Source: a virus. Taken from it: DNA of 22,941 nucleotides. Below, piece after piece: positions 2,418 to 18,100 of the stretch. The notes beneath the pieces were generated by a model, which had not been told where the DNA came from, did not search any database, and worked only from the letters and a program-made list of their open reading frames with translations. A program made the translations under genes and the position numbers. The DNA lies in the IMG/VR virus record IMGVR_UViG_3300020183_000489, positions 1 through 22,941 of that record; one strand, given 5' to 3'. Within the stretch, counting starts at the first letter, position 1. Each line of letters starts with the position of its first letter.

Positions 2418-2437
2418 CGGGCACCGAACCCTGTCAA
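2409..2437 (-). promoter_or_regulatory. Sigma70-type promoter before the 77-aa acidic gene
   Basis: On the minus strand TTGACA (2432-2437) is followed by 17 bases and TACAGT (2409-2414), 10 of 12 consensus positions. It sits in the largest intergenic gap of the window (about 52 bases), with the TGA of the preceding oxygenase gene inside the -35 hexamer. Expected start is near 2402, followed by a GGGAGA ribosome site and the ATG at 2381. It lies at the point where base composition rises and gene content changes from structural/accessory to small early-type genes. Confidence 0.65.
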
Positions 2438-3030
2438 GCCCCCTGCCAAAAATTCTTTTCCGTTGATTTTACCATCCTAGGAGTTACACGAAATACTACA
2501 GTAGATCTATAAACATACTTTTCAGTTGGTGCTAATCCACGATGAGGATGTGTAGATGGAATAATAATTAGTCTTCCTGGTTTATATTCATGTTCTTCAA
2601 CAACAATAGAACCATCTTCGCTTGTTAATTGAAATTGCCCACCCCAACTAGAATCCCACTTAGAATTTGTCATAAGCATAATAGTAAAATCATTTGGATT
2701 CTTACTATCACAATGAGTTGTTCCATCACAACCAGTATGTTGAACATTCAACGATATCTGAGAAAGATAAAACTTTGTCTGTAATTTATCTTCTATCATC
2801 TCAAAAATATCAAAAAATGTTGAAGCAGACTCATGCAATACAGTTATTCTGTTAATTGATTTACGATCAAATAATATTTGACCAAGCAATCTATGTGTTC
2901 CTTCTTGACCAAAAGGCCATGTGGATCTGTTGGCAATATTATTAGAGCAAAGAGGAATATCTCTTATCATAGAATCTAACTGATGAACATAAATGTCATC
3001 AAACAATCCATCAATAACTTTGCAAATCAT
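2434..3030 (-). CDS. 2OG-Fe(II) dioxygenase, prolyl-4-hydroxylase-like (198 aa)
   Basis: Enzymes of this superfamily use Fe(II), O2 and 2-oxoglutarate to hydroxylate an amino-acid side chain, nucleotide or small molecule. Visible landmarks are the metal triad His106-x-Asp108 (THCDS) and His163 (HPHRG), a Trp-Gly-Gly turn at 129-131 before the core strands, and Arg175 (YRST), which would bind 2-oxoglutarate. Length and motif spacing suit small phage and bacterial members. The substrate is unknown. The ATG sits three bases after the upstream stop, with an AGAGAA ribosome-site-like stretch. This is the last gene of the AT-rich accessory cluster, and its stop codon lies inside the next promoter. 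Confidence 0.85.
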   Translation of the reverse strand: MICKVIDGLFDDIYVHQLDSMIRDIPLCSNNIANRSTWPFGQEGTHRLLGQILFDRKSINRITVLHESASTFFDIFEMIEDKLQTKFYLSQISLNVQHTGCDGTTHCDSKNPNDFTIMLMTNSKWDSSWGGQFQLTSEDGSIVVEEHEYKPGRLIIIPSTHPHRGLAPTEKYVYRSTVVFRVTPRMVKSTEKNFWQGA

Positions 3031-3033
3031 AAT

Positions 3034-3597
3034 CTATTCTCTGTGAATATTAATATTGTATGATATAGAAATCCTATCGTCTTCAGATAAATTTTCTTCT
3101 ACATAATGATTTATATAAGTTGGAAAGAAGTATCCACATCCTTCTTCTGGTTCTATTTTCTCTTCTAATTTTACATTTTGAAACAGCGATGTCATCTTTG
3201 CTGTGCTCTGACATTGTTGTGGATTAATCAAACATAAATTACCAGAATTTTTTGGTGCTTTTACGTAATAGACACCAGTAAAATCTCCTTCATGTATATG
3301 AGGTAAATGATATGCTCCTGGTGGATTAATATTACAAAACAGATTACCAAGATAAAATTTACATGGTGCTATAGGAACCAATTCGTTCTGTATAAAATTT
3401 TCAAACTGCTTACCTATTACAGAAATAAGATTCTGTAATTGTGGCAAATTCTGAAGTTCATTTTTCTGCCAACCTTTACGGTTAGAATGAACATCAGAAT
3501 TTGTCTGCAGTTGTTTTAACGAATATAGAAAATTTTCAATTTGTTTATTATTAAAATTATCTAATTGGTATTTTCCAAAAGTAGTTCCTAAGATCAT
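3034..3597 (-). CDS. Putative 2OG-Fe(II) oxygenase, TIGR02466-like (187 aa)
   Basis: The C-terminal half resembles the TIGR02466 group: PPGAYHLPHIHEGDFTGVYYV (92-112, shown here as its parts: PPGAYHL then HIHEGDF then TGVYYV), a later FFPTYINHYVEEN (157-169) and DRISISYN (174-181). Likely metal ligands are His100 and/or His102 and the distal His164, with Arg175 for 2-oxoglutarate. The HxH in place of the usual HxD is a feature of this subgroup as I remember it, and makes the exact ligands uncertain. The N-terminal 75 residues are a Gln/Asn-rich helical region. The ATG overlaps the upstream TGA as ATGA (3594-3597), so translation is probably coupled to the 294-aa gene. The substrate is unknown. 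Confidence 0.75.
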   Translation of the reverse strand: MILGTTFGKYQLDNFNNKQIENFLYSLKQLQTNSDVHSNRKGWQKNELQNLPQLQNLISVIGKQFENFIQNELVPIAPCKFYLGNLFCNINPPGAYHLPHIHEGDFTGVYYVKAPKNSGNLCLINPQQCQSTAKMTSLFQNVKLEEKIEPEEGCGYFFPTYINHYVEENLSEDDRISISYNINIHRE

Positions 3598-4478
3598 TCA
3601 ACTTCTTCAAAATCAACAACAACAAAGGTATATAATTTTTTATCTACCATCACACCATCTTCCCATTTAAACTTAACAGAAAATTGCTGCCATTTAGGGC
3701 TTTTCTCTCTACAGAATTTTACTTCATCTTCTGATAATAATCCAGTCTCAAGCATTCTGTCAAAATACTTATCTTTTCTATCAACATAACCATCGTAAGA
3801 ATTATTACTCAAGTAATATTCTTTTTGGAAAAATGCACTAACCAATTCAATAGAAATTTTACCATCATCTGTAGAATTAAATTGAATGCGAATGGGGGAT
3901 CTAAAAGAATCTGGATCTGCTGCCAATCCCAATTTAATATTAGGATAATTTAGATCAACAAATTGTTGAACTTTATTAATATTTTCCAGTTCATTTAGAT
4001 AAGAAAGAACATCAGAATTTGGTCTAAACAGAGTAATGTATTTCACAACATCTCCATTCAATCCAACAGATATTCCCTCAATACCAATATCCAATTCCTG
4101 TGAACGCAGATATTTTAAAACCGATGGTTCTGTTTTATTTCCTAACATTTTATAGAATTTAGAAACGGATTCTTCAACCATTCCTCTATAATCATAAGCA
4201 AAATACGAATGATATGCTTCTATATTATTTTGATTATCAGAAGATATCCATAATCCACAACTATTCGTTTTGAATGCAGCACCAGATTTAAATCCTTTTC
4301 CGACTTCTAAATCATCAAAAAATTGATAATATTTTTTTAATGTTTCACAAGCAGATGATTGAATAGCATCTTCCCCATATTCAATATAATCATGAGGAAC
4401 ATATTTATGATAACTAATACATTCTTCCGTAACTAAACTATATTCCTTTACTCCAATATAGTGATCAACTATCGCCAT
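3594..4478 (-). CDS. Unrecognised 294-aa protein with alternating helix and strand pairs
   Basis: I do not recognise a family. By eye the sequence alternates between probable helices (residues about 37-58, 99-127, 154-176, 229-260) and strand pairs (about 65-96, 130-152, 195-217, 263-292). The later strand pairs look alike: ISVGLNGDVVKYITLF, IRIQFNSTDDGKISIELV and FSVKFKWEDGVMVDKKLY. This helix/strand/strand/helix periodicity and the length near 300 residues resemble the ABBA barrel of aromatic prenyltransferases, but no sequence match supports that and other folds are possible. The gene starts directly after the 114-aa gene, with a GAGG ribosome site about nine bases upstream, and its stop overlaps the next oxygenase start (ATGA). 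Sitting between oxygenases, it may act in the same modification pathway. Confidence 0.8.
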   Translation of the reverse strand: MAIVDHYIGVKEYSLVTEECISYHKYVPHDYIEYGEDAIQSSACETLKKYYQFFDDLEVGKGFKSGAAFKTNSCGLWISSDNQNNIEAYHSYFAYDYRGMVEESVSKFYKMLGNKTEPSVLKYLRSQELDIGIEGISVGLNGDVVKYITLFRPNSDVLSYLNELENINKVQQFVDLNYPNIKLGLAADPDSFRSPIRIQFNSTDDGKISIELVSAFFQKEYYLSNNSYDGYVDRKDKYFDRMLETGLLSEDEVKFCREKSPKWQQFSVKFKWEDGVMVDKKLYTFVVVDFEEVE

Positions 4479-4479
4479 C

Positions 4480-4824
4480 TTATTCGCCCTCGTTAGAAAA
4501 TACTAACTGACCTTGAGCATTATACACAGCACCGAATATGTAATAATCTGGATCACCGTCAGTAGGTGAGTTTGGAAAAGTATCCGATAAAAATCTATCT
4601 GCTTCTTCTACCGTTTCAAACTCCATAATAAAAAATTCGCTATTAAAGATTGCTGTGAAAACATCATCGGTAACAAGATGTCTATACAAATCATATACTT
4701 TATTTAATTTATCAACATCTTTACACTTGTCAGGGCCAACTACACGCACAAACAAATGTGGAGTTCCTTTTGCCTTCACATACTCTTCTATAATAGTTTG
4801 AAATTCGTAAACTTGATAGTTCAT
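4480..4824 (-). CDS. Unrecognised small acidic protein (114 aa)
   Basis: This small soluble protein has no recognised motif. It has an N-terminal helix (YQVYEFQTIIEEYVKA), a strand HLFVRVVG, and an FIMEFETVEEADRFLSD segment that suggests a small alpha/beta fold of the ferredoxin-like kind; this is a visual impression only. A longer frame begins at a TTG (4848), but the ATG at 4824 gives a four-base ATGA overlap (4821-4824) with the stop of the upstream oxygenase. That is the junction style of this cluster, so I place the start there. No good ribosome site precedes it, which fits coupling. The stop is followed after one base by the 294-aa gene. Confidence 0.75.
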   Translation of the reverse strand: MNYQVYEFQTIIEEYVKAKGTPHLFVRVVGPDKCKDVDKLNKVYDLYRHLVTDDVFTAIFNSEFFIMEFETVEEADRFLSDTFPNSPTDGDPDYYIFGAVYNAQGQLVFSNEGE

Positions 4825-5360
4825 GATGGTTTTGTGAATAGTTTCCAAGCAATAGTTATTCTTATTCCGCCAAAAGATCTAGTAGTTTCTTCTGCCCAAT
4901 GATAGATTTGACCTGGAAATAAAACTCCTTTATTAGGTTCTGGAATAACATAATGATATTTAGTTCCCGTTTGGGTTGGAATAATAAATGCCGTTTTACC
5001 TCCCCACTGCACATCCCAACAATCCATAGGATAATATAAAAATGTTCTGCAAGTATCAACATAACCATCTACGTGTGGTTTACCACGCATTCCATATGTT
5101 TGACCGTTAGCATAAACACGTTCCATATCAAATTTTTGATTGGTAGCATTTTCTATTTTTCTGAACAAATACTCGGTAAAGAATTTTTCGTCAGATAATC
5201 CCATATACCAAAATGGCGGCATGTTATCTTTTTCTGTTTGATTGCTTTTATGCCCCCATGCCCATTTATCCAATTGAGTATATCTCAAAATAGATGAGTG
5301 ATCAGATTCGGTAAAGATATCTGGATATTCTATAATATCATTTACACTAAATAATTGCAT
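4821..5360 (-). CDS. 2OG-Fe(II) dioxygenase (179 aa)
   Basis: The facial triad is clear: His96-x-Asp98 in KPHVDG, distal His154 in GQIYHWAEE, and Arg167 in GIRITIAW as the 2-oxoglutarate anchor. A WGGKTAF turn (119-125) and the Phe-Pro-Gly (148-150) before the distal His are typical of double-stranded beta-helix hydroxylases. The N-terminus (residues 1-80) would form the usual helical support. Substrate unknown. The ATG at 5360 lies 14 bases inside the end of the upstream PKHD-type gene and has an AGAGA stretch just before it. Its stop overlaps the start of the 114-aa gene. Confidence 0.87.
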   Translation of the reverse strand: MQLFSVNDIIEYPDIFTESDHSSILRYTQLDKWAWGHKSNQTEKDNMPPFWYMGLSDEKFFTEYLFRKIENATNQKFDMERVYANGQTYGMRGKPHVDGYVDTCRTFLYYPMDCWDVQWGGKTAFIIPTQTGTKYHYVIPEPNKGVLFPGQIYHWAEETTRSFGGIRITIAWKLFTKPS

Positions 5361-5991
5361 TTTCTCTAATCAAATTATGACGAACGGTTTCAAACTTATG
5401 CTTGAGTGGATGATCTGGTTCTAATTGTGCTAACAATTTACTGAATTCAGTAATAATTTCTCTGTTCTTTCCATTATCTATCATAGAACAGAACCACCAA
5501 GTTATAACTTTCCTTTCACCTCTAGTTACTTTCTTTACCGAATGTGGTAATCCTGTGTGATATATTACTGCTTGACCAGGATTTAATTTATATTCTAGTT
5601 CTTTGCCACCAACTTCAATGACCAGTTCACCACCTTCATATTCTTCTGGTGATGATAGAAAACATGTAACACTATAATCCGTTTTCATTCCATCAAGAAT
5701 CCACATATCATTATGCCAAGCATAATGCATTCCTTCCTTATATCTCAGAAAGTTGGGGTGAGTATGACCTCTAGGGAGAAAATAATAATTAAATTCTGCA
5801 TTCTCTGAAATGTGTTTATCCACCAACTGCACTAATGATGGATAATGTATTTCATCTAATATCTGTTCGTTATATTTTAAATCTCTATTTGCAGATCCAG
5901 ACCAAGATCCATCAGTGAACTCACAAAATTCATAAAAATCTGTGATATTTTTTACTATAGACAAGGGCAACATATCAAAAACATGTATCAT
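5347..5991 (-). CDS. PKHD-type (PiuC/YbiX-like) 2OG-Fe(II) hydroxylase (214 aa)
   Basis: This is the clearest oxygenase of the cluster. It shows FLRYKEGMHYAWHND (81-95) with ligands His93-x-Asp95, then YSVTCFLS, the EGGEL turn (119-123), and PGQAVIYHTGLPHSVKKV (138-155) with distal His150. GERK follows with Arg160 as the 2-oxoglutarate anchor. This order and wording match PKHD-type hydroxylases such as PiuC/YbiX, whose substrates are poorly known. A short C-terminal helix (176-190) is also typical. The start lies two bases after the upstream TAA; no good Shine-Dalgarno is seen, so coupling is likely. It overlaps the next oxygenase by 14 bases. Confidence 0.9.
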   Translation of the reverse strand: MIHVFDMLPLSIVKNITDFYEFCEFTDGSWSGSANRDLKYNEQILDEIHYPSLVQLVDKHISENAEFNYYFLPRGHTHPNFLRYKEGMHYAWHNDMWILDGMKTDYSVTCFLSSPEEYEGGELVIEVGGKELEYKLNPGQAVIYHTGLPHSVKKVTRGERKVITWWFCSMIDNGKNREIITEFSKLLAQLEPDHPLKHKFETVRHNLIRENAII

Positions 5992-5993
5992 AA

Positions 5994-6932
5994 TTACTGA
6001 GGGCTTAGTTTACTGTAATCAATCTCTCTATATACTTCTTCTAACTTTAACTGCTTAGAAAGTTCTAAAATTTTTGCATTTACTGGTCGAATCTTATCAT
6101 CGTATGTTTCCATAAAGATCACTAGATTTAACATAGTAGCACTAGTAAAATCTTTTGATACTTGGAAGTCATACTTATCAAATTGATCTTCTGTAGACAA
6201 ATATTCTACCTCACGATTAGGATATTTGTCAAGATAGACAGAAGGATCAATAGGATATTTTAGTGTAGTAATAAACTTAAACATTTCAAAGTTTGTTTCA
6301 AATACTTCGCGTGGTTTTGCTGGCATCAACTCTCTTAGTTTCTGTCTCCACACAACCCACATATCTCGTTCACCTTCGAATTTTTGTGGTGCATCTGGAA
6401 GAACTCTCCAGTCAGAAAATAGAAGCATTTTATTAATTTCATCTTTTTTCTTATACCACTTAGCATCATAAAAATAATCTAGAGAATTCAATTCTCGTAT
6501 TTCAGACAAGAGGCGATTAGTTTCTGCTTCTTTTTGAATAATAACAATCGCTTCAAGTTTTTCACATAAATCTAACAATTCAGAAGTTTTGCACTCCTTA
6601 AATTCATATGTAACCCAATATGATGATTGAGTTGCAAAATCATACTTCAATCTTCTTTTTTGGCACAGAAAAGTGTTATCAGTGTATAGAATAATGTATT
6701 CTAATTCATCTTTTCCTTCATTATGCCACAAACCTTTTACTAAAGGTAAAACCTTTTCTTCCCATGCTTCATCTACAATAAAAGTAGTTTGCCCACCTTC
6801 ATTAATTAATCCCAGAGTTACAGCCTTTTCTTTAAAATTAAACTCAAACTTTGAAGATCTAGGAGTAGCTACCTGAGACCAAAATTTATCCATCTCAGAT
6901 TGAGATGGTTGCATGTAATCGGAATTTGCCAT
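5994..6932 (-). CDS. Protein with tail-fibre-assembly-chaperone motif (312 aa)
   Basis: Residues 166-202 contain INKMLLFSDWRVLPDAP and then MWVVWRQKLREL. This 'DW..LPD.P ... W..(Y/W)RQ.LR.L' signature is the mark of phage tail-fibre assembly chaperones (Caudo_TAP/DUF4376 type), which help fibre tips trimerise. Here the motif is in the middle, preceded by about 115 residues of beta-rich sequence and a helix (118-150). It is followed by about 100 residues with no recognised motif, so the protein is longer than most chaperones. It starts in a TAATG overlap with the upstream oxygenase and has an AAGG ribosome-site-like stretch. Placement between fibre genes and oxygenases suggests it serves one of the collar or adhesin proteins. 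The function is inferred from the motif. Confidence 0.72.
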   Translation of the reverse strand: MANSDYMQPSQSEMDKFWSQVATPRSSKFEFNFKEKAVTLGLINEGGQTTFIVDEAWEEKVLPLVKGLWHNEGKDELEYIILYTDNTFLCQKRRLKYDFATQSSYWVTYEFKECKTSELLDLCEKLEAIVIIQKEAETNRLLSEIRELNSLDYFYDAKWYKKKDEINKMLLFSDWRVLPDAPQKFEGERDMWVVWRQKLRELMPAKPREVFETNFEMFKFITTLKYPIDPSVYLDKYPNREVEYLSTEDQFDKYDFQVSKDFTSATMLNLVIFMETYDDKIRPVNAKILELSKQLKLEEVYREIDYSKLSPQ

Positions 6933-7588
6933 TATGGTGCCTTGATAAACCAGCCTGTTAAAATGTATTTATCTTGAGTAAATACTGTATTTCCTTTATG
7001 AACATGAGTCATTCCAGCTGGCCAGATAGTTACAGTTCCCACTGATGGTTTAATTCTTCTTCGTTGATAGAGAAATTCTGTCTCTGCTTCTCCATCTGGC
7101 ATATCATTTAGATAGATAGCCCAAACAAGTTCTCTTGCGTGATGACCATAACCAGCATTTTCATAATGCCATACATGGTATCCTCCACCTGGAGGAGTCT
7201 TTTGCATTTTATTATCTTCAGCAATCAATTTAGAATTTTTTAATTGATCGTAAGTATCAATATAATGAAGCGCACATGCAGTTAGATACTGTTGTAATTC
7301 ATAATTTAATTTAGGATTTGAATAATTTAAAAGAATAGATAGATCTTTTCTACCTAAACTACCATTCTGAAATTGACCAGTTCCATCAAGAACACCAAAT
7401 TCATCACTCGCTAAATCTTCATTGTAAAAAGTTGATACTTGAATAGTTTCCTCAAAATAATCAATAGTTTTTTGGCACACATACTGAGGAACAAAATTTT
7501 CCCAGATGCCAATAAAATCATTAAATTCAGACTTGGTGATGTTTTCATCTTTCATCAACTCAAGTGGTCTAATTGGTGTAGTTCCCAT
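6932..7588 (-). CDS. 2OG-Fe(II) oxygenase with His-x-Glu ligand pair (218 aa)
   Basis: The double-stranded beta-helix core is visible in the C-terminal half. It shows GYHVWHYENAGYG (136-148), ELVWAIYLND (153-162), GTVTIWPAGMTHVHKGN (184-200) and KYILTGWF (207-214). The likely metal ligands are His141-x-Glu143 and His195 or His197; Glu replaces the common Asp. Lys207 occupies the place where Arg usually binds 2-oxoglutarate. These are departures from the canonical set, though the WP.G.THVH.G ... K.I.TGW pattern is familiar in phage oxygenases. The start has a strong GAGGA ribosome site overlapping the upstream stop region. It is the first gene of the oxygenase cluster after the fibre genes, and its stop overlaps the next start (TAATG). 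Confidence 0.82.
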   Translation of the reverse strand: MGTTPIRPLELMKDENITKSEFNDFIGIWENFVPQYVCQKTIDYFEETIQVSTFYNEDLASDEFGVLDGTGQFQNGSLGRKDLSILLNYSNPKLNYELQQYLTACALHYIDTYDQLKNSKLIAEDNKMQKTPPGGGYHVWHYENAGYGHHARELVWAIYLNDMPDGEAETEFLYQRRRIKPSVGTVTIWPAGMTHVHKGNTVFTQDKYILTGWFIKAP

Positions 7589-7595
7589 AATTTCC

Positions 7596-8861
7596 TCAAA
7601 AAACTTTGATGATATATTTAACTCGATAATATTTAGTGAGTAGTGGAATAGTGTTTTCTGGTGCCAGTGAAGGAGTTGGTAAAACTTTCTTGGATGGGTT
7701 TAAAGCAAAAGTTGCTTCATTTGCAGCTAATGCCAATTCTGTTTGGGAAAAATTAATTGTAACTGTGGTTGAAGTTGACATGCTACCAGCAGCATCTCCA
7801 CCACCATTATTATTTCCATATCCATAAACATTAGCAGTGCTACCAAATGAACTTAATGACAAGTAATGAGCGTGTGTTTTTAATTCGCCAGGAGACCAAA
7901 CAGTGACGTTTCCAGTAACAGTATTAATATCAATACCTGCAGATGCATTACCACCACTAGGTAATCCAGAAATACTATTTTGAACTGCACCCGCCCAGTA
8001 ATTATTGAAAGTTCTATTGACACTACCACCAGGAGCAACAACACTATTATATCCAATAGAGGGATATAATGTTTTTGTTATTTCCCCTGGCGATATCTGA
8101 TAAAAAGCAGGAACGCCCCAAGCAACACAACCTACGTTAATTTCATCATTTTGAGCAGTAACAACATCATGTTCATGTTGCGCTGGAATAACAATTGTTT
8201 CTTTAACTGGTCCGACAACACCAGAAACATTACCAGTAATCGTATATGTAGTTTCCCCAGAAATTTTTTCAGCACCAGTAGTAGTTAAAGTTCCTAATTT
8301 AAAAAACTTACCGTCTGGAGGAACAGTGCCAGAAAAAACTTGTTCATCTGGTGGAGAACCAGAAGCATCAATCTTTTTAATATACCAGTTTCCACCAGTA
8401 GATCCAACAATATTTCCATCTCCAGTAGAGGAAGAAGCAGGATCTGGTCCCTTATAAGTTGTTACGATTGGTGATGATGCCGCATTACCATCTATTCTAC
8501 CAACTCCAAACAATTTACGCAATCTGTAATTTGGTAGTTTAAAAGACCCTGTATAAGTGTAACTATTACCAGATAAATTTTTTACGCCATTTCCACCATA
8601 AGTATTGCCGATTGCATTGAATAAATCTGGATAATCAACAGCATTCAATGTATCTCCATTACATTCTCTCCACCCAGGATAACGAGACGTAAGACTTCCA
8701 CTCAAATCTCCCCAGTTTCCTGTTCTATCTCTAAAGATAGAAATAACAGTTCCAATAGCAAGACCATCTTCTTTGATTGCTTTTCTGCTATACCATACTC
8801 CAGGATCTTGAGCGTCAGCAGATGTATATGTTCCGACAGTCCAGGTAGTTGTATATGGCAT
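7596..8861 (-). CDS. Tail collar-domain fibre protein (421 aa)
   Basis: Residues 36-121 match the phage tail collar domain (PF07484 type): GTVISIF, PGWRECNGDTL, YPDLFNAIGNTYGG and FKLPNYRLRKLFGVG. Such domains occur in short tail fibres (T4 gp12) and other receptor-binding tips. The remainder is Gly/Ser/Thr/Asn-rich beta sequence with two His-x-His motifs, His229-Glu-His231 and His330-Ala-His332, like the metal-binding sites of T4 gp12 and gp37. The C-terminus ends in a hydrophobic strand (YRVKYIIKVF) that resembles the ends of the two other collar proteins here. The ATG is preceded by AGGAAAC and the upstream gene's TAA. A perfect T4 late-promoter motif lies 85 bases upstream. Confidence 0.88.
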   Translation of the reverse strand: MPYTTTWTVGTYTSADAQDPGVWYSRKAIKEDGLAIGTVISIFRDRTGNWGDLSGSLTSRYPGWRECNGDTLNAVDYPDLFNAIGNTYGGNGVKNLSGNSYTYTGSFKLPNYRLRKLFGVGRIDGNAASSPIVTTYKGPDPASSSTGDGNIVGSTGGNWYIKKIDASGSPPDEQVFSGTVPPDGKFFKLGTLTTTGAEKISGETTYTITGNVSGVVGPVKETIVIPAQHEHDVVTAQNDEINVGCVAWGVPAFYQISPGEITKTLYPSIGYNSVVAPGGSVNRTFNNYWAGAVQNSISGLPSGGNASAGIDINTVTGNVTVWSPGELKTHAHYLSLSSFGSTANVYGYGNNNGGGDAAGSMSTSTTVTINFSQTELALAANEATFALNPSKKVLPTPSLAPENTIPLLTKYYRVKYIIKVF

Positions 8862-8862
8862 C

Positions 8863-11031
8863 TTAGTTTCCTACCGATATTTGAGTATTAACAGATCCTC
8901 CCAAAGTAGCACTGGAAGTTATTCTTACTTTTAGTGTTTCTCCATTATTTATATTTCCACTTGTAACCCAAGGACCCCCATTAATTGAAATCTGTGCGCC
9001 ACCAGTAATACTAATTGGAGATGGAGAAGTAATACCTGTAATGAGAATAGTATTACTTTCTATCAAAACACTTGGCGCTTGATTTGGTTTATTGATGAAA
9101 GTAAAGGCATCAGGAATTGTATCTCCAGCAGTTGTGGTAAATAAATTCCAAGTATCTGTTAAATTTCCTACTGTCACATTTGTAGAAACTACTCCACCAA
9201 AATCAGCAGATGAAGTTAACCTAACTCGTAATGTTTGATTATTGTTAATTGTTGTTGGAGAATTTACAAATGCTCCTCCATTAACACTAATTTGAGCACC
9301 ATTTGTTGTAGTTACTGTAGCTGGAACATTAATACCAGTAATTGTAATGGGATTACTATTAGTTAAAGTGGATACTGCAGCACCAGTAACATCAAGTATA
9401 TTAAAAAATTCTGGGCTAGAATCAGCAACAAGAACATTCGTAACACTCCAAGTAACGGGAGCACTATCACCAACAGTAATTGCAGTATTTTTACTGTCTC
9501 CTAACACATTACTAGTTAAAACTCTAAGTTGTAAAGTCTCACCGTTATTAATTGTTTTTGATGTAGTGCTAAAAGCACCACCATTTACAGAAGACTCAAA
9601 ACCATTAGAAGGTGACGTAACTGTTACTGCTTGTGTTATACCAGTAATTGTAACAATATTACTGTTAATATATGTTTGTAAAGAGGCGTCGGTAACATTA
9701 TTAAAAGAAAATGGATTTGGATTTTGAGATGGTGGGGAAGACGTAGTAATAGACCACACACCAGTAACAGATCCAACAGAAACCGTAGTTGATTTGCCCG
9801 TATTGTATGATGCAGATGAAGTCATTCTTACTGCAAGTGTCGATCCATTTGTTACTGTTTTAGTAGATGTAGAAAATGCTCCTCCATTTACTGATGTCTC
9901 AGCACCATTCGTAGCATTTACATTAACAGAAATACCATTTCCTAATCCAGAAATAGTTACAGCACTACTAGTATAAAGAGTAGATAAAGATGCATCAGTC
10001 ACATTCGCAAAAGCGAATGCATCCGCTGTTGTATCTGGCGCTACAACTTGAACAGTAACTGATTCTGTGTCAGTTGTGCTGCCATCAGTAGCAGTAAGAG
10101 TATACTGAGTGGTTACATTTAATGGTCCGACTATAATTTGTTGTATACCTGTAGAAACTGCTCCAACTCCTTGATTTATACTAGCACTAGTTGCTGTATT
10201 TGTAGCGCCAAGATTAGTGCTCCACGACAAAACTACCGTTTCTCCCTGAGTAATTGTTGTAGTTGGATATTGATCATTTGCTTTAAAATAAGAAATAGAT
10301 GCTGGAGCAGTAAAAGTGACAACAACATATCCAGCACCATTATTAGTTGACTGACTAGTTAACGAATATGTAGAATAACCAGATCCACCACCGCCGCCGC
10401 CGCCTGATACACCACCATTATCATTGCCAGGACCTCCTCCGTTACCACTATTATATCCACCGCCACCGCCGCCGCCGCCTCCACCATCACCACTTTTATT
10501 TGCTCCATTTCCGCCATCTTGGGGAGTTCCTACAGCGGTAACAAATGTTCCTGCTGTTCCGCCGCCGCCGCCAGGTGTATTCCAAGAACCACCTCCACCC
10601 CCACCACCGCCACCCGCGACAACAGTATATGCGTTCACAAAACTATCAAATACTGCTGAAGCACCACCACCGCCAGCTCCGCCACCAGAACAACCACTGC
10701 CGCCAGCATTACCACCATTTCCACCATCACCATCATTATTTCCACCACAATCTCCTCCACCACCACCACCTGTTCCAGCGACACATCCAATTCCATTGCT
10801 TGCAGCATCACCAACATAAAAAGTCAATTGATAATCTTCGCTTCTTTGTGGTATCGTAAAAGTTCCCACTCTACCAGCGCCGCCACCACCAGGAGTACCG
10901 CCAGCATCGCCGCCACCAGATCCTCCTTTTCCGCCAGCCACAGTAATAGTAGGGCTTTGTGTTCCTCCAGGAACTGTGATAGTCTGCGCTTGTGGAGAAT
11001 AGTTATAAGTGAGTGTAATAGATCCTGCCAT
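8863..11031 (-). CDS. Adhesin-like protein: polyglycine domain, Ig-like domain, four repeats (722 aa)
   Basis: Domains in order: a short beta start (1-31), a glycine-rich domain (32-218) with runs of up to ten Gly, and a closing NGAGYVVVTF strand. An Ig-like domain follows (about 245-330, with VVLSWST and YTLTATDG). Four repeats then run from 337 to 722, marked by (V/I)NGG at 381, 482, 583 and 683, a period of about 101 residues. Glycine-rich domains of this type form polyglycine-II sandwiches in the S16 gp38 adhesin, so this may be a receptor-binding tip protein; that link is by analogy. The C-terminal half is paralogous to the adjacent 679-aa protein. The ATG follows directly on the upstream TAA. 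The low-complexity DNA creates long proline-rich open frames on the other strand that are not genes. Confidence 0.85.
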   Translation of the reverse strand: MAGSITLTYNYSPQAQTITVPGGTQSPTITVAGGKGGSGGGDAGGTPGGGGAGRVGTFTIPQRSEDYQLTFYVGDAASNGIGCVAGTGGGGGGDCGGNNDGDGGNGGNAGGSGCSGGGAGGGGASAVFDSFVNAYTVVAGGGGGGGGGSWNTPGGGGGTAGTFVTAVGTPQDGGNGANKSGDGGGGGGGGGGYNSGNGGGPGNDNGGVSGGGGGGGSGYSTYSLTSQSTNNGAGYVVVTFTAPASISYFKANDQYPTTTITQGETVVLSWSTNLGATNTATSASINQGVGAVSTGIQQIIVGPLNVTTQYTLTATDGSTTDTESVTVQVVAPDTTADAFAFANVTDASLSTLYTSSAVTISGLGNGISVNVNATNGAETSVNGGAFSTSTKTVTNGSTLAVRMTSSASYNTGKSTTVSVGSVTGVWSITTSSPPSQNPNPFSFNNVTDASLQTYINSNIVTITGITQAVTVTSPSNGFESSVNGGAFSTTSKTINNGETLQLRVLTSNVLGDSKNTAITVGDSAPVTWSVTNVLVADSSPEFFNILDVTGAAVSTLTNSNPITITGINVPATVTTTNGAQISVNGGAFVNSPTTINNNQTLRVRLTSSADFGGVVSTNVTVGNLTDTWNLFTTTAGDTIPDAFTFINKPNQAPSVLIESNTILITGITSPSPISITGGAQISINGGPWVTSGNINNGETLKVRITSSATLGGSVNTQISVGN
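8946..8953 (-). promoter_or_regulatory. T4-type late promoter motif before the 421-aa collar gene
   Basis: TATAAATA on the minus strand is an exact match to the T4-like late promoter -10 box, 85 bases before the ATG at 8861. It lies inside the coding end of the 722-aa gene. In AT-rich DNA a chance match is possible, so this is moderate support only. Confidence 0.4.
9842..9949 (-). repeat. Copy 1 of a ~108-bp nearly identical direct repeat
   Basis: Aligned by eye with 12035-12142, about eight of 108 bases differ, mostly at silent positions. It encodes the first C-terminal repeat (NATNGAETSVNGGAFSTSTK region) of the 722-aa protein. Confidence 0.85.
10378..10938 (-). repeat. Polyglycine-coding low-complexity tract
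   Basis: Dense GGN codons (CCN on the plus strand) encode the glycine-rich domain of the 722-aa protein. It contrasts with the AT-rich surroundings. Apart from glycine it contains short breaks with aromatic residues (YNSG, YSTYS) and four cysteines at about residues 83, 95, 114 and none later within the tract that I can pair with confidence. Confidence 0.75.
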
Positions 11032-13071
11032 TTATCCTACGGTAACAGTTGTAGTAATTGTTGCTCCCAAAGTTGTTGAAGATAATTGCCTCAACACGAA
11101 TGTGTCACCTTCGTTCACGGTATGAGTTGTTGCATAAGAACCACCATTAACAGATGCTTGTGCTCCACCAGTAACAGTTAAAGTAGATGGAGAAGTTATA
11201 CCCGCCAAAATTACTGTATTGCTATACACATAAGTGTTAGGTGGTTGATTTAATTTATTAAAGAAGAAGAAATCATCTGGAATAGTATCTCCAGCAGTTG
11301 TAGTCATCACAGTATATGTATTCGACAATGTATTAATTCCAGATCCAATAGTAACTTCAGTAGATGTAGTTCCCCCTGGAGTAGAACTAGAATTTATTCG
11401 AATAACTACAACATCTCCATTATTAACTGTTTGTGGAGAAGATAAGAAAGCACCACCATTGATTGAAATTAATGCTCCATTTGTTGTAGTTATTGGTGTC
11501 GGAATATTAATACCAGTAACAGTAAAAGGAACACTATCAATTGCAGTTCCTGGAGGTGCATTATTTCCAATAGGTGTAGTAAGAACTTCAAAATAATTTG
11601 GAGATCCGTCAGCAACAAGAACATTAGTAACTTGCCATGATACAGGAGCACCATCACCTACAGCAATTTGAGTAGTTCTAATATCACCCAAAACATTACT
11701 TGTCAATATTCTCAATTGCAACGTCTGCCCATTACTAATTGTTTTAGCAGAATTACTCCAAGCACCACCATTTACAGATGATTGAGCATATCCAATATTA
11801 CCTGGAGCTGTTACATTTACTGTTGATGTTATACCAGTAATAGTAACAATATTACTATATGCATATGTTTGCAATGGAGCTTCAGTAACGTTATTAAATG
11901 TAAATATATTAGGAATTTGAGCAGGTGGAGATTTAGTAGAAATAGACCACGCTCCAGATACAGAACCAATAGTTATAGTTGTTGTTTTAGTGCTATTATA
12001 TCCAGTGGGAGATGTCATTCTAACAGCAACAGTTGATCCATTCGTTACTGTCTTAGTAGATGTAGAAAATGCTCCCCCATTTACTGATGTCTCAGCACCA
12101 TTTGTAGCATCCACATTAACAGAAATACCAGTTCCCAATCCACCAATAGTTATAGTGTTGCTAGTATACGAAGTATTTAATTCCGACTGCTGAACGCTAG
12201 GAAATGTAAATAGATCTGGAATATTATCTGGTGCTAGAACCTGAACAGTAACAGATTGAGTAGCAGTTCCAGATCCCCCAACTGCACTTAAAGTATAAAC
12301 TGTTGTTTGCGTTGGTCCAGTTATAGTTAATGTTCCCTGATCAACAGGAGTGACATTTCCAACACCTTGATTAATACTAGTAGAAGTAGCAGTGGATAAT
12401 TGACCTAATTTAGTATTCCAAGCAAAAGTAATTGGATCTCCAGGATTAATTTCTGCAGTAGTTGGAGCTCCGTTGATTGTAAACTGACTGATAGTTGTTG
12501 GAGGAGTTCCGTAAATTTCAATTCTACAAACTCCATATCTATCACCTGCATTAATGTGACTCTGAAATGGAATTCCATCATTGAATTCTGGTTGTTGAAT
12601 ACTAAATGCAGTTATTCTCCACAATCCTACTGTTTTTTCATCTGCATTTAAAGCAAATGATTTAGTAAACCAATTTTCTTGACCACCTAGATTTGGATAT
12701 GTAAATCCACCGTCTTGACCAGAAAATGCTAATAGTCTAGCAACTCCTGTTGGAGATCTAAGATACAAAGATTCGCCAACGTTATTGGGTCTTTCACCGC
12801 CATTAAAATCGTTTCCAGCTATAATAGTAAGAGTAATCGTATCCATTGAAGTTAAATTCAACAGAAAAGTTGCTTCTCTATCCTGAACATAACTGGTTGT
12901 ATTAAAAGTTCCTATGCTTAGATATGATTGCCCAGTTGGAGTAGTCCATCCACCCAGTTCTCCGCTGTTTACACCACCGTAAACACCAAAACCAGATGCA
13001 TAAATTGCACACCCATCTAATAGTTGGAAGTTTAAATTTACTCCAGGGCGATAATCGTATACTAATGCCAT
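11032..13071 (-). CDS. Adhesin-like protein: unique N-terminal domain, Ig-like domain, four repeats (679 aa)
   Basis: The N-terminal 189 residues form a separate beta-rich domain (FGVYGGVNSGELGGW, LYLRSPTGVARLLAFSG, WRITAFSI, YGVCRIEIYG) that reads like a galactose-binding or proprotein-convertase-type sandwich; this is an impression only. An Ig-like domain follows (190-279, ITFAWNT and YTLSAVGG). Four repeats run from 285 to 679, with (V/I)NGG at 330, 433, 537 and 641. From residue 190 on it is paralogous to the 722-aa protein, including nearly identical DNA at 12035-12142. The two proteins thus share a shaft and differ at the tip. The ATG follows two bases after the upstream TAA with no clear Shine-Dalgarno. 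It is probably a virion fibre or adhesin component. Confidence 0.82.
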   Translation of the reverse strand: MALVYDYRPGVNLNFQLLDGCAIYASGFGVYGGVNSGELGGWTTPTGQSYLSIGTFNTTSYVQDREATFLLNLTSMDTITLTIIAGNDFNGGERPNNVGESLYLRSPTGVARLLAFSGQDGGFTYPNLGGQENWFTKSFALNADEKTVGLWRITAFSIQQPEFNDGIPFQSHINAGDRYGVCRIEIYGTPPTTISQFTINGAPTTAEINPGDPITFAWNTKLGQLSTATSTSINQGVGNVTPVDQGTLTITGPTQTTVYTLSAVGGSGTATQSVTVQVLAPDNIPDLFTFPSVQQSELNTSYTSNTITIGGLGTGISVNVDATNGAETSVNGGAFSTSTKTVTNGSTVAVRMTSPTGYNSTKTTTITIGSVSGAWSISTKSPPAQIPNIFTFNNVTEAPLQTYAYSNIVTITGITSTVNVTAPGNIGYAQSSVNGGAWSNSAKTISNGQTLQLRILTSNVLGDIRTTQIAVGDGAPVSWQVTNVLVADGSPNYFEVLTTPIGNNAPPGTAIDSVPFTVTGINIPTPITTTNGALISINGGAFLSSPQTVNNGDVVVIRINSSSTPGGTTSTEVTIGSGINTLSNTYTVMTTTAGDTIPDDFFFFNKLNQPPNTYVYSNTVILAGITSPSTLTVTGGAQASVNGGSYATTHTVNEGDTFVLRQLSSTTLGATITTTVTVG
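11035..12219 (-). repeat. Four ~103-residue repeats in the 679-aa protein
   Basis: The units align one-to-one with the four repeats of the 722-aa protein and keep their order, including the shared TTAGDTIPD lead-in to the last unit and the VTNVLVAD.SP lead-in to the third. This suggests whole-block duplication and not repeat shuffling. Confidence 0.8.
12035..12142 (-). repeat. Copy 2 of the ~108-bp nearly identical direct repeat
   Basis: Partner of 9842-9949, 2193 bases away. It encodes the first C-terminal repeat of the 679-aa protein. Higher identity here than elsewhere between the two genes hints at recent gene conversion or strong constraint. Confidence 0.85.
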
Positions 13072-13073
13072 AT

Positions 13074-13928
13074 TTAAAATTTAATAATGTATTCTACAAC
13101 AACAAATGGGGCAACACTTTCGTTTAGAACTTTTACGTTTTTGGTAGAAATATTTAATGTTGTTTGTAAGTTATCTGCTGGAACATTAAATGTATTGTAT
13201 TGATATACAAAATTTTGATTATAACTAGTAGGCCACGTAATTCCATGTGAGTGATTAGATGCTGTAGTGTTTGCTGGATTGCCAGATCCAACTGTAGCAT
13301 TACCACCAAAAGGAGAGCAGTTTTGCCCACTCTTACCTTCAGCGCCTACTTTAAAGTTTCCAGTGTAATTTAAAACTTTTGCGTTTGATCCATGACCATG
13401 TGCTTGGAAATTACCAGCATCTAAAATAGTAGTTGATGTTTTCTTATCAGTATTTGGTGGATTAAATTTCGCATTTCCAAGAAGAGATAATCCAGTTTGA
13501 CCAACTACAGTAAAGTTACCAGAATAATCAATTGTTACGCTGTTTCCTACATTAGAAGTAACTTCTACTTCAACACCAACTCTTTTTGTGGTTGCTGACT
13601 GCAATAAAGTTATATCACTATATGTTCCAGTAGATAATCCAGGTGAAAGATATTTTGATCCCAAATCTGGCAATTGAAATTGATTATCTGTTAATTGAGA
13701 TGTTTCTTTTTTAAATCTGGAATTACTACCTGTTCCTAAAATTAATGCTAATTCAGGATAATCAGAAGCAGTTTTTATCGACCCATCGCAACGTAAATAT
13801 CCTGCAGGAATTTTAGTTTTGAAAGTATCATCCAATGGGTCATTAGATAAATTTAAAAAACTGGTAAATATTTGAATGCTACCTACCATTCCACCAAATT
13901 TAGATTTTTCTCTTGCGTAATTTGCCAT
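13074..13928 (-). CDS. Tail collar-like fibre protein (284 aa)
   Basis: Residues 14-90 form a divergent collar domain: MVGSIQIFTS, IPAGYLRCDGSIKTASDYPELALILG and FQLPDLGSKYLSPG. After a beta-rich middle come two His-x-His motifs, His177-Gly-His179 and His226-Ser-His228, as in metal-binding fibre tips of T4-like phages. The C-terminus (VVVEYIIKF) matches the ends of the 421- and 409-aa collar proteins, so the three are probably paralogues. The N-terminus MANY is shared with the 409-aa neighbour, which also points to duplication. The start lies two bases after the upstream TAA with little sign of a ribosome site. It is probably a trimeric short fibre or fibre-tip protein of the virion. Confidence 0.82.
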   Translation of the reverse strand: MANYAREKSKFGGMVGSIQIFTSFLNLSNDPLDDTFKTKIPAGYLRCDGSIKTASDYPELALILGTGSNSRFKKETSQLTDNQFQLPDLGSKYLSPGLSTGTYSDITLLQSATTKRVGVEVEVTSNVGNSVTIDYSGNFTVVGQTGLSLLGNAKFNPPNTDKKTSTTILDAGNFQAHGHGSNAKVLNYTGNFKVGAEGKSGQNCSPFGGNATVGSGNPANTTASNHSHGITWPTSYNQNFVYQYNTFNVPADNLQTTLNISTKNVKVLNESVAPFVVVEYIIKF

Positions 13929-13930
13929 GG

Positions 13931-15160
13931 TTAGAATGCCCTAATTAAGTATAAGCAAATTAATGAAGGTGTTGTCGTAGTAACATTCAAGTTGAATGCT
14001 TTATCAACATTCGCTGGAGTAACATTTGAAATAACATTTGCATTCGTAGTATTAGGAAGTCTCAGATTTCCTATATCAAATGTAGTTTCAAAAGGTTCAT
14101 GATCGTGTGGAGAAATAACTACTTGTTGACCAGCAATAATAGTGTTTTGGTTGAAACTAATTGCATTAGAATCATACATTACTTTATTCCAGTTATCAGT
14201 ATCTCCACTGTTTCCACCACCAGGATCAAAATTTCTGTTGGATATTGTTTGAGATCCACCGCCACCAACATATAACAAAGTATCTCCAGGAAGAAACTGT
14301 TCATCCATAGAATTACTATTTGTGGTTCCTTTGGTTTGATAAGGACCAAACCAGTTTGAGATAGGAGATCCAACTACATTAAATGGTTTTAAGTTAAATG
14401 TTGGGTTTTCGCCTTGAACATTAGCAATAACTACGCCAGGAGCACCACCACCAAATCCTTGTTGGTTTGTATATTGAATGGTTAACTGTGCTTGAACCTG
14501 ACTGTAATCAAGTTGGTCAAAGCTAGCACGGTTAATACTATAGTTTATTTCCCCCCATGCTGCAACACCTGTTCCTGGTCTACTACCATCAGAACCAGCA
14601 TATATTGTATTAAAAGTAGTTGGGTGACTATGAATTGTTATGTGTCTTCTTCCCAATTTTCTAGGGGAAACATAGACTGTTTTAGAACCGAATGTTTCGT
14701 TTATCTTAGCACCTGTCAATTTGCCAGTAAAATCATTTTCTGGCGTATAAGAAAAATTAATATCAGTATAAGCATTGTAATTTGTTCCTACACCATTATC
14801 ACTATCTTGACCGATAAGAGAAGTATTTGTTCCTGGTGCAACAAGAGCAGCAAGAGCTTCATTACTGCTTGTATTATCACCAGATCCACCAAAATAAGAA
14901 GCTTCTATATCTTGTAATGATCTTTGTGAAATATTAGGCAGTGCAATTTCACCAGTGTAATTAGGAAATGTTCCACCAAATCCAGATCCACCATAAGTAT
15001 TTCCTACATTTTGAGTGAGAAGAGGATATGCTGCAGCATTAACTGTTTGCCCATTACAAATTAACCATCCAGGCGGAACTGCAGTTAAGTCTCCTACCCA
15101 TGGCATAATAGTGCCGATAGCGGCACCTTTCATAGTTTTTATGCTTCCGTAATTTGCCAT
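13931..15160 (-). CDS. Tail collar-domain fibre protein (409 aa)
   Basis: The collar domain is clear at residues 14-80: AIGTIMPWVGD, PPGWLICNGQTVNAAAYPLL, NVGNTYGGSG and IALPNISQRS. Later regions are Gly/Asn/Thr-rich beta sequence with two His-x-His motifs, His177-Ser-His179 and His352-Asp-His354. The C-terminal strand ICLYLIRAF resembles those of the two sister collar proteins. Collar proteins are usually trimeric and sit at baseplate short fibres or fibre tips, binding host surface sugars. The gene follows the giant structural gene after seven bases and precedes its closest paralogue by two bases. Confidence 0.87.
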   Translation of the reverse strand: MANYGSIKTMKGAAIGTIMPWVGDLTAVPPGWLICNGQTVNAAAYPLLTQNVGNTYGGSGFGGTFPNYTGEIALPNISQRSLQDIEASYFGGSGDNTSSNEALAALVAPGTNTSLIGQDSDNGVGTNYNAYTDINFSYTPENDFTGKLTGAKINETFGSKTVYVSPRKLGRRHITIHSHPTTFNTIYAGSDGSRPGTGVAAWGEINYSINRASFDQLDYSQVQAQLTIQYTNQQGFGGGAPGVVIANVQGENPTFNLKPFNVVGSPISNWFGPYQTKGTTNSNSMDEQFLPGDTLLYVGGGGSQTISNRNFDPGGGNSGDTDNWNKVMYDSNAISFNQNTIIAGQQVVISPHDHEPFETTFDIGNLRLPNTTNANVISNVTPANVDKAFNLNVTTTTPSLICLYLIRAF

Positions 15161-15167
15161 AATTGTA

Positions 15168-18100
15168 TTAGATTTCCATTAACCACCAACCTTGTAGGTT
15201 GCTTGGAACACCAGAAGAAGAACCATCTGAAAGTAGAGGACCAGCATATACTAATCCAAAAGCAGCGTTTGGTGTAGTTACAATCAATTCGCCACCGTCA
15301 TATCCAGTCAATGATACTCCAGAAATTGTAGCAGCAGTATTGGAAGTATCACCTTGAATTGGAACTCCAGATGGAGCTCTCAAGATAAACTTAACATTGT
15401 ATGTCAATGATCCACTGAGATCTACAAATCTAATCATATCACCAGTAGTTGCTGTTGCTGGTAATTTAACCACTAAGTTAGAAGATGGTTTTACAAAGTA
15501 ATTTATATTAGATATGAGAACGCCACCATCACCAGAGACAGTATTCAAGTAGATCCACTTTCTAGCACCAGTAGCAGAGAAGTATTGATCAACACCACCC
15601 AAATCAATAGTTCCATTGTTATTAACCTTAAATCTCTTAGTTGCATTATTATTTACTGTTAGATCACCACCGTTGAGTGTAACATCGCCAGCAAAAGTGT
15701 TTGTTCCTGTGCCATTTGTTGCGATAACACCAGAGATCGTAAGGTTTCCACTTCCATTTACAAACGATAACTTAGATGTAGTTGTATCAGAAGCAAAGAT
15801 ATTAAAATCACCGCCATTAATTACGGTATTACCAGATGTTCCATTAACAATTAACTTATTGAATCCAGTTCCTACACCCAGATTACCAAGAATCTGAGTA
15901 TTTCCATTAGCACTATCTACTTGGAAAGTTAAAGTTGGAGTAGCAGCACCATTAGTAATCTTGAATAGATTGTCATTAGCAGTAGTAGAACCATTTAATG
16001 TAATGGTGTTATCTACATCTAAAGTTCCTCTAATGTAAGTATTACCAGTTGTAGAAAGAACTTGGAATACAGTTAGAGCAGGAGAACCGCCATCGTTAAC
16101 ACGTAATCCCTGAATATCATTAGGAGCAGTATTAACCTGAGTTACTCTAAAGAGTTCAGTGTCGTCAATTCTTAGAATATCACCTACATTAATTGATCCA
16201 CCAAATTCAGATGTTGTAATCGTAACAGTTGCACCAGCAACACCATTAGCAATAGTAGATGCAGTGTAACTTACATTTTCTGACTTAATAAGTTTGATAA
16301 TTGGGCAATTATCTGGATGATCGTCTCTCTGTGTTGTATTCTCTTGAGCTCTTTGAACTCTTACTCTATAACCAAGTGGATCAGAAGCATTAGTTGCGTT
16401 GAGAATTTCAACGACACGAAGAATTTCGCTATTCGCTTGATTAGATCCACCAACTACGGTTGATCTGTCAATCAATAGAAGATCACCAACAGTAATATCA
16501 GAAATACCAATTGATTGATTTAGTGGTAAGAAGTATTCTGTTGCAGATGATGGCATTAAGAATGTCGATCCGCCCCAGAAAGCAGCACCTTGAGTATCAA
16601 GAGACTTATTAATTTCAATTGGTTTATAAAGATCGATATTTAAATTAATTAAACTACCGACTGGGTGAGCAGAAACTGGTGTAGAAAATACACCTCTAGT
16701 TGCATTTAATGTTCCTGCTTGTAGACCACCATTAAGTGTCATGTTACCATTAACTTGCTCACTCGCCTTCACAAGTAAACTGTTATTGACAGTAGTTGTT
16801 CCAGCGTCAGCGCCAACACTTAAAAGCGAAGAACTTCTAGCAAAGTTTACTGTAGTAGGACCACCAGAAGCACTGAAGAGATCAAGTTGACCAGCAAAAG
16901 TATACATTCTGGCAATACCACTGCCAGGAGCATTCTTAGCGCCAATTTCAACTTCACCATCAATCTTAGTTAGTCTATTTTGAATTCTTAATTGACTAGT
17001 TGAGTTAGAATATGCACCACCAATTGTGATATTTGAAGTATACGCAGCATTATCAGCAACTGAACCAATATCAATTAGGGAGTTGGTAGAATTTCTATGA
17101 ATAAACAGAACACTAGAAGTTGCAGCATCACCAATCGTTATAGTTTGATTGGGAGCAGCATTTCCAACATTAATGGTTTGTAGTGATGTTGTAGTATTTC
17201 CTACACTTAATGAAGTTGCACTACTAAAAGCATTTACTGTAGTGCTTGTGGTTCCTAGATTGAATGAAGAGCTAGAACTGTTTAGAGTTCCAGTATCAAG
17301 ATCTAACTGACCACCAATTTTGAAATCAGAAGTAATTCTTCCATTTCCAACTACAACAAAGTTTCTATCTAAATCAGATGCAGCATTTCCATTGTTTGTA
17401 GTGTTAATTCCGAGTCTACCACCATTAGTGGTCATGACTCTTAATGTCACACCATTGTTTATACTGAATCCAGGATCAGTCCAGTCGCCACTAAATCCAA
17501 GAATTAAAGCATCATCTCTTAATTGATATAATTTTCCACTTCCTATTGTTGTGTTATAATTATAGATTTTTTGACCTGTAATATAAGCATTACCAACAAC
17601 GTCTAAGTTTGCCTTAGGATCTGTTAGTGTGGATACAAATGCAGTTTGATATGCAGCATGTGCAGATCTAGCAACAGTATTAACACCTAACTTATAGTCA
17701 CCAATAGTTGCTGTCTCAGTTCTAAGGGCTTCAGCACCGATAACACCCCACTCTTTGAACGCAGTTTGTGATCTTGCGATTACAATTGATGGTTGAGCAA
17801 CCTGATCTACAGGATAACCTTTACCGCTATTAAGATTAATAGGATAAATTGGTAGATTTGTGTTAGTTAAAATATCAACAAAGTTATTTGAAGATGAGAA
17901 TGGGAATAGACTGTCACTATAAACAGGCCATACTCCATTCAAATTAGCAAGAGAACCAGTAGCGCCAGTAATTCTAATTTGTGTAGAGCTGGTGATTCCT
18001 AGATTAGAATTAGTAATACCAATATTCCAATTTAATCTTACAATAGTTCCGCTTGTATTTCCTTGAATGCCAAGAACCTGAGGAGTTGGATTGCCTACAC

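Follow-up and report, generated by a model that had tools for sequence, protein, structure and literature searches.

A run of Fe(II)/2OG oxygenase and chaperone genes conserved beside the tail fibre genes of T4-like cyanomyoviruses, a possible fibre-maturation operon

Results

Eight packed genes follow the collar fibre gene

The window, by which we mean the whole stretch of DNA analysed, is a virus record of 22,941 bases whose genes match T4-like cyanomyovirus families. Open reading frames are present at the coordinates noted for the run of interest (2434-7588), which reads on the minus strand. In the reading direction, a giant fibre gene is followed by four smaller fibre/adhesin genes, a collar-domain fibre gene and then eight packed genes, labelled ox5, chap, ox4, ox3, u122, u294, ox2 and ox1.

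7596-8861, minus strand: collar-domain short tail fibre protein, 421 aa (PF07484, 2e-11; phrog_4924, 2e-81)
6932-7588, minus strand: ox5, Fe(II)/2OG oxygenase with HxE..H..K (H141, E143, H197, K207) (PF13640, 2e-7; phrog_61, 5e-47)
5994-6932, minus strand: chap, tail (fibre) assembly chaperone (phrog_4697, 2.3e-64; weaker matches to phrog_4912 'tail fiber assembly', 0.0013, and PF16778, 0.083)
5347-5991, minus strand: ox4, PiuC/PKHD-type Fe(II)/2OG oxygenase (H93, D95, H150, R160) (PF13640, 5e-14; phrog_61, 6e-38)
4821-5360, minus strand: ox3, Fe(II)/2OG oxygenase (H96, D98, H154, R167) (phrog_274, 2e-29; PF13640, 1.8e-4, below the cut-off)
4480-4824, minus strand: u122, small protein (phrog_4883, 5e-30)
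3594-4478, minus strand: u294, rapidly diverging protein predicted to adopt an ABBA (PT-barrel) fold (AF2 and Foldseek)
3034-3597, minus strand: ox2, PF13759-type oxygenase with HxH..H..R, an optional member (PF13759, 1.6e-16; phrog_81, 8e-36)
2434-3030, minus strand: ox1, Fe(II)/2OG oxygenase related to ox3 (H106, D108, H163), an optional member (PF13640, 4.8e-7; phrog_274, 1e-17)

The first-pass annotation had described five oxygenases chained with a fibre-chaperone-motif gene beside collar and adhesin genes, and this description held. Four of the five exceed the Pfam cut-off (PF13640 for ox1, ox4 and ox5; PF13759 for ox2), and the fifth, ox3 (22.9 against a cut-off of 27 bits), is assigned through phrog_274. 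The phrog_4697 match identifies the gene at 5994 as a tail assembly chaperone. Neighbouring genes overlap or are separated by at most 7 bp, and the collar and adhesin genes come ahead of the run, with the collar gene immediately before ox5. The start of u122 is more likely to be the ATG used here, as in its relatives. A DNA methyltransferase gene (711-1694; phrog_67, 2e-66) lies downstream of the run.

Active sites and relatives of the oxygenases

Fe/2OG ligand patterns had been proposed for all five proteins. The HxD/E..H form is present in ox5, ox4, ox3 and ox1, whereas ox2 carries HxH...H...R, a variant of that triad. Alignments of distinct sequences show that both His and the Lys of ox5 are invariant and its Glu is found in 75/76 (a single Glu/Asp exchange), that H, D and H of ox4 are invariant with R in 74/75, that the entire ox3 site (H, D, H, R) is invariant among 68, and that ox2 has three invariant His with R in 22/23. 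The basic residue after the last His (K in ox5; R in ox4, ox3 and ox2) is therefore conserved in at least 22/23 in each case. For ox1, H, D and H are invariant (12 distinct sequences), and the column checked for a 2OG-binding basic partner in this 12-sequence alignment is Ser. Close pairs of run genes gave dN/dS values of 0.01-0.23, and the run genes are under purifying selection.

Comparison with the PDB connects several of the proteins to hydroxylases. The C-terminal catalytic region of ox5 matches bacterial prolyl 4-hydroxylase (3itq/5hv0, 2.5e-6), and ox4 matches the PKHD-type protein 3dkq (8e-36, profile 1-219) and PiuC (9ghl, 4e-30) over its full length. A joint ox3 and ox1 profile weakly matches OGFOD1 (3e-4) and PHD2, while ox2 matches the uncharacterised structures 3bvc (7e-17) and 2rg4. 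Homology to PiuC/PKHD-type, bacterial P4H and OGFOD1/PHD enzymes makes a protein substrate plausible.

An older proposal, known here as it is cited in PMC9146016 and PMC3037559, assigns such oxygenases to DNA repair, and enzymes of DNA repair or DNA modification would also accord with a name in the databases: relatives of ox3 in RefSeq records and in phrog_274, which ox1 matches too, are called 'DNA endonuclease V'. Given that an invariant HxD..H site is found across the family and nothing in it points to DenV, this widely copied label does not fit the ox3 family and looks like a propagated error. Identity of ox3 with T4 DenV was rejected on its invariant 2OG site, its 2OG-family matches and the lack of any DenV family match in Pfam. 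Moreover, the relatives found (PKHD-type for ox4, prolyl hydroxylases for ox5 and ox3, uncharacterised structures for ox2) include no DNA-repair enzyme, and the run sits among fibre assembly genes. We regard a DNA-directed role as highly improbable.

The run is a conserved module

An IMG/VR scan with a chaperone profile returned 80 loci, and 97 loci with the chaperone were examined with profiles built here. The order in these loci is fibre, ox5, chap, ox4, ox3, u122, u294 and then optional ox2 and ox1, with median gaps along the run of +2, -4, -14, -6 and -1 bp; neighbours mostly overlap or lie at most 10 bp apart. The first six run genes occur in order in S-PM2, Syn1, S-CAM1, S-CAM3, ACG-2014e/i/j, S-H9-2, S-RIM32, Sf-FP1 and Sf-CH11, and isolates with the run order span many genera. 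The run, with three to five oxygenase genes, is a conserved module of T4-like cyanomyoviruses, and its gene order, which recurs in scores of phages, is more than chance. Co-occurrence with collar and fibre genes in other phage genomes, suggested as a check in the first-pass annotation, is borne out.

The ox5 slot is occupied in 94/96 loci. In the set of 58, occupancy is 53 for ox4, 51 for ox3, 58 for u122, 54 for u294, 23 for ox2 and 10 for ox1. The variability of the genes after u294 is compatible with the 3' end of the fibre operon being a tolerant site that accumulates oxygenase genes without joint function. However, the first six run genes are strictly ordered and slot-orthologous, with no turnover. 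On a tree of ox5 and ox4 relatives, a single branch separates the 38 ox5-slot copies (clusters) from copies outside the slot, with a support of only 80 and warnings of long branches; two changes are required for the ox4 slot. This suggests that slot genes persist and are not replaced by outside copies. Passive accumulation at a tolerant site is, in our judgement, very unlikely.

u294 has a predicted prenyltransferase-like barrel

The run gene that diverges most rapidly is u294 (mean column identity 22%, compared to 41% for u122). Its AlphaFold2 model (pLDDT 85.7, pTM 0.86) was compared with the PDB using Foldseek, and the best 50 matches are all prenyltransferases (top match 7fhf, 5.7e-6), with a probability of 1.00 but TM of 0.4-0.5. 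No basic column in the u294 alignment, examined for conserved diphosphate-binding residues, exceeds 0.68, and none of those above 0.5 lies in the barrel strands. Unlike the neighbouring oxygenases with their invariant sites, u294 has no strongly conserved basic residue in its strands, so prenyltransferase activity lacks support. Among viruses, the strong matches are to uncharacterised proteins of ACG-2014e, S-CAM1, S-CAM3, S-RIM44 and S-RIM32 together with one other protein, and Pfam and NCBIfam searches with u294 returned no match. The predicted fold gives a structure-based lead for this otherwise unannotated gene, T4-GC743.

The u122 model (pLDDT 94) has no confident structural match in the PDB. 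Several top Foldseek names suggested a thioredoxin-like fold for u122; with a best E of 0.17 and TM below 0.5, this assignment was rejected.

ox5, ox3 and u294 are absent together

We widened the survey with two further IMG/VR scans that used divergent chaperones, giving 110 complete cassettes, a larger set than the 58 above. ox5 is missing from 28/110. Cassettes without it occur in S-WAM2 and Sf-FR1, so ox5 is dispensable with some fibres. The chaperone and u122 are kept in 28/28 of these cassettes, and u122 is found in all 110, while u294 and ox3 are found in 0/28. When cassettes are clustered at 70% chaperone identity, 35 clusters have both ox5 and u294, 3 have ox5 only, none has u294 only and 10 have neither (Fisher p-value 4e-8, for lineages that are related). 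On the chaperone tree these patterns correspond to about 4 changes for ox5 and 2 for u294, and the 3-4 independent pairs give no power for a tree-based co-variation test. With so few events, the co-absence of ox5 and u294 is suggestive rather than decisive.

Oxygenase genes are in excess near the fibre cassette

Oxygenase genes are very common in these phages. Their positions were compared across 14 related genomes; positions were transcribed by hand, and in several genomes the start of the giant fibre was estimated from where the collar lies. Among the matches listed, 73/121 oxygenase genes are found no more than 6 kb from the fibre cassette, compared to a mean of 22.4 expected, and 0/100,000 circular shifts reach 73, a p-value that is optimistic because the 14 genomes are related. 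Some oxygenases also lie just before the giant fibre, e.g. in S-PM2.

The remaining 48/121 of the listed matches (~40%) are more than 6 kb away. In the Pelagibacter phage HTVC008M, four tandem oxygenases (5443-7682) lie between the baseplate gene region and the neck genes, not by fibres; this phage also has a tryptophan halogenase between its terminase genes. Oxygenases at positions unrelated to fibres, the observation that had been set against a fibre role, therefore do exist, but alongside a statistical excess by the cassette, and the ~40% found elsewhere indicates that the fibre link holds for particular lineages and not for the superfamily.

This scatter agrees with the metabolic role proposed for cyanophage oxygenases in 2010 (PMC3037559) and repeated in PMC9602691, according to which they would change nitrogen signalling and energy in the host by consuming 2-oxoglutarate, fibre proximity being incidental. 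A metabolic role leaves unexplained both the fixed-order slots interleaved with a fibre chaperone and the co-absence with u294, and we consider it quite unlikely for the run.

In Syn9, S-SM1 and S-TIM4, whose fibre set is different, oxygenase clusters also lie ~4-9 kb downstream of the fibre genes. In S-TIM4, ORF23 is related to ox5 and adjoins a gene annotated as tail fibre; ORF23 was among 20 genes, most of them structural, that mutated during experimental host adaptation, and it was not particle-associated (PMC6224464). In Syn9 (12966-16071), two tail fibre assembly genes and then two tryptophan halogenase genes lie between the fibres and the oxygenase cluster. The halogenases are possibly another protein-modifying enzyme by fibres.

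Fibre proteins and signals

The C-terminus of the collar fibre protein is conserved and ends ..KYYRVKYIIKVF; the protein has HxH motifs at 229 and 330. HxH motifs bind metal in T4 gp12 and gp37. An HxH lies near the fibre C-terminus in this protein and most of its relatives, and far upstream in S-WAM2-type fibres without ox5. By a hand tally, clusters with ox5 have the C-terminal HxH more often (36/37, against 4/9 for those lacking ox5; p-value 5e-4); as an ox5-specific fibre feature it is weak, given the exceptions and shared ancestry. The neighbouring fibre/adhesin protein (8863-11031) has a glycine-rich N-terminal part (18.7% Gly overall) and matches cyanophage virion structural families. 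A collagen-like Gly-X-Y substrate was rejected, as the fibre proteins of the window contain one short glycine-rich run only.

CTAAATA is enriched before ox5 and was considered as a late promoter. However, it falls on codons of the conserved C-terminal peptide of the fibre (TKY/VKY) and is a coding artefact. Simple promoter and terminator scans performed no better than on shuffled sequence.

Discussion

The link of these oxygenases to fibre genes is strongly supported. A dedicated hydroxylation system for virion fibres had been proposed from the initial reading of the locus; synteny, slot orthology, the joint absence of ox5, ox3 and u294 and the excess by the cassette uphold its fibre link, whereas hydroxylation of Pro, Asn or Lys side chains is what we infer. 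Our preferred interpretation, to which we give about an even chance, is that the run serves T4-like cyanomyoviruses as an operon for fibre maturation, in which the oxygenases hydroxylate the fibre or its chaperone during assembly. The genes would be expressed jointly. The chaperone and u122 would help the fibre encoded just upstream to fold or trimerise, and the oxygenases would act during its synthesis, hydroxylating side chains on the fibre or on the chaperone holding it. The probable role of u294, which is the fastest to diverge and is missing from every cassette that lacks ox5, is to recognise the variable fibre or to position the oxygenases. This suggests chemical modification by the virus of its own fibres.

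The synteny fits equally well with an operon of related purpose whose target is not the fibre but, for instance, only the chaperone, a different virion protein or a molecule on the host surface. Near some of the clusters lie Nol-like carbamoyltransferases, enzymes with possible small-molecule or surface substrates. However, the ox5 slot between fibre and chaperone points to the fibre, and we consider a non-fibre target unlikely.

Extending the fibre-maturation interpretation, we propose tentatively, and with some doubt, that multi-enzyme hydroxylation matures receptor-binding fibres, that a dedicated chaperone and a recognition protein with a barrel fold guide it, and that parts are lost or swapped with fibre type. 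If true, viruses abundant in the sea would use chemistry to adjust the proteins by which they select hosts. In a non-exhaustive search of open-access main texts, we found neither a described phage fibre-modification system of multi-enzyme hydroxylation with a chaperone nor a link between oxygenases and fibres; the genes are called metabolic or DNA-repair. What the many oxygenases of ocean cyanophages do has been in question since at least 2010, and a fixed operon with a fibre chaperone makes this testable in laboratory phages such as S-PM2 and Syn1.

Several known systems resemble parts of the run. Bacterial prolyl 4-hydroxylase (3itq, 5hv0) is like ox5 in its catalytic region, with Glu as the acid ligand in ox5. 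PiuC and PKHD-type hydroxylases (9ghl, 3dkq) are full-length homologues of ox4, which differs in being a member of a phage operon. The ABBA prenyltransferases NphB, AmbP1 and CloQ resemble the barrel predicted for u294, but at TM-scores of only 0.4-0.5 and ~8% identity. For the run as a whole, cyanomyovirus T4-GC 734-743 with GC240, GC28, GC166 and GC101 (S-PM2, Syn1) correspond to the same genes in matching order in the record annotation; in the literature searched they are treated only as separate metabolic or repair genes, without a proposed fibre role. Synechococcus phage Sf-CH1b, whose record names no system, matches the run in all eight genes (36-71% identical) and in their order, and has an extra, sixth oxygenase.
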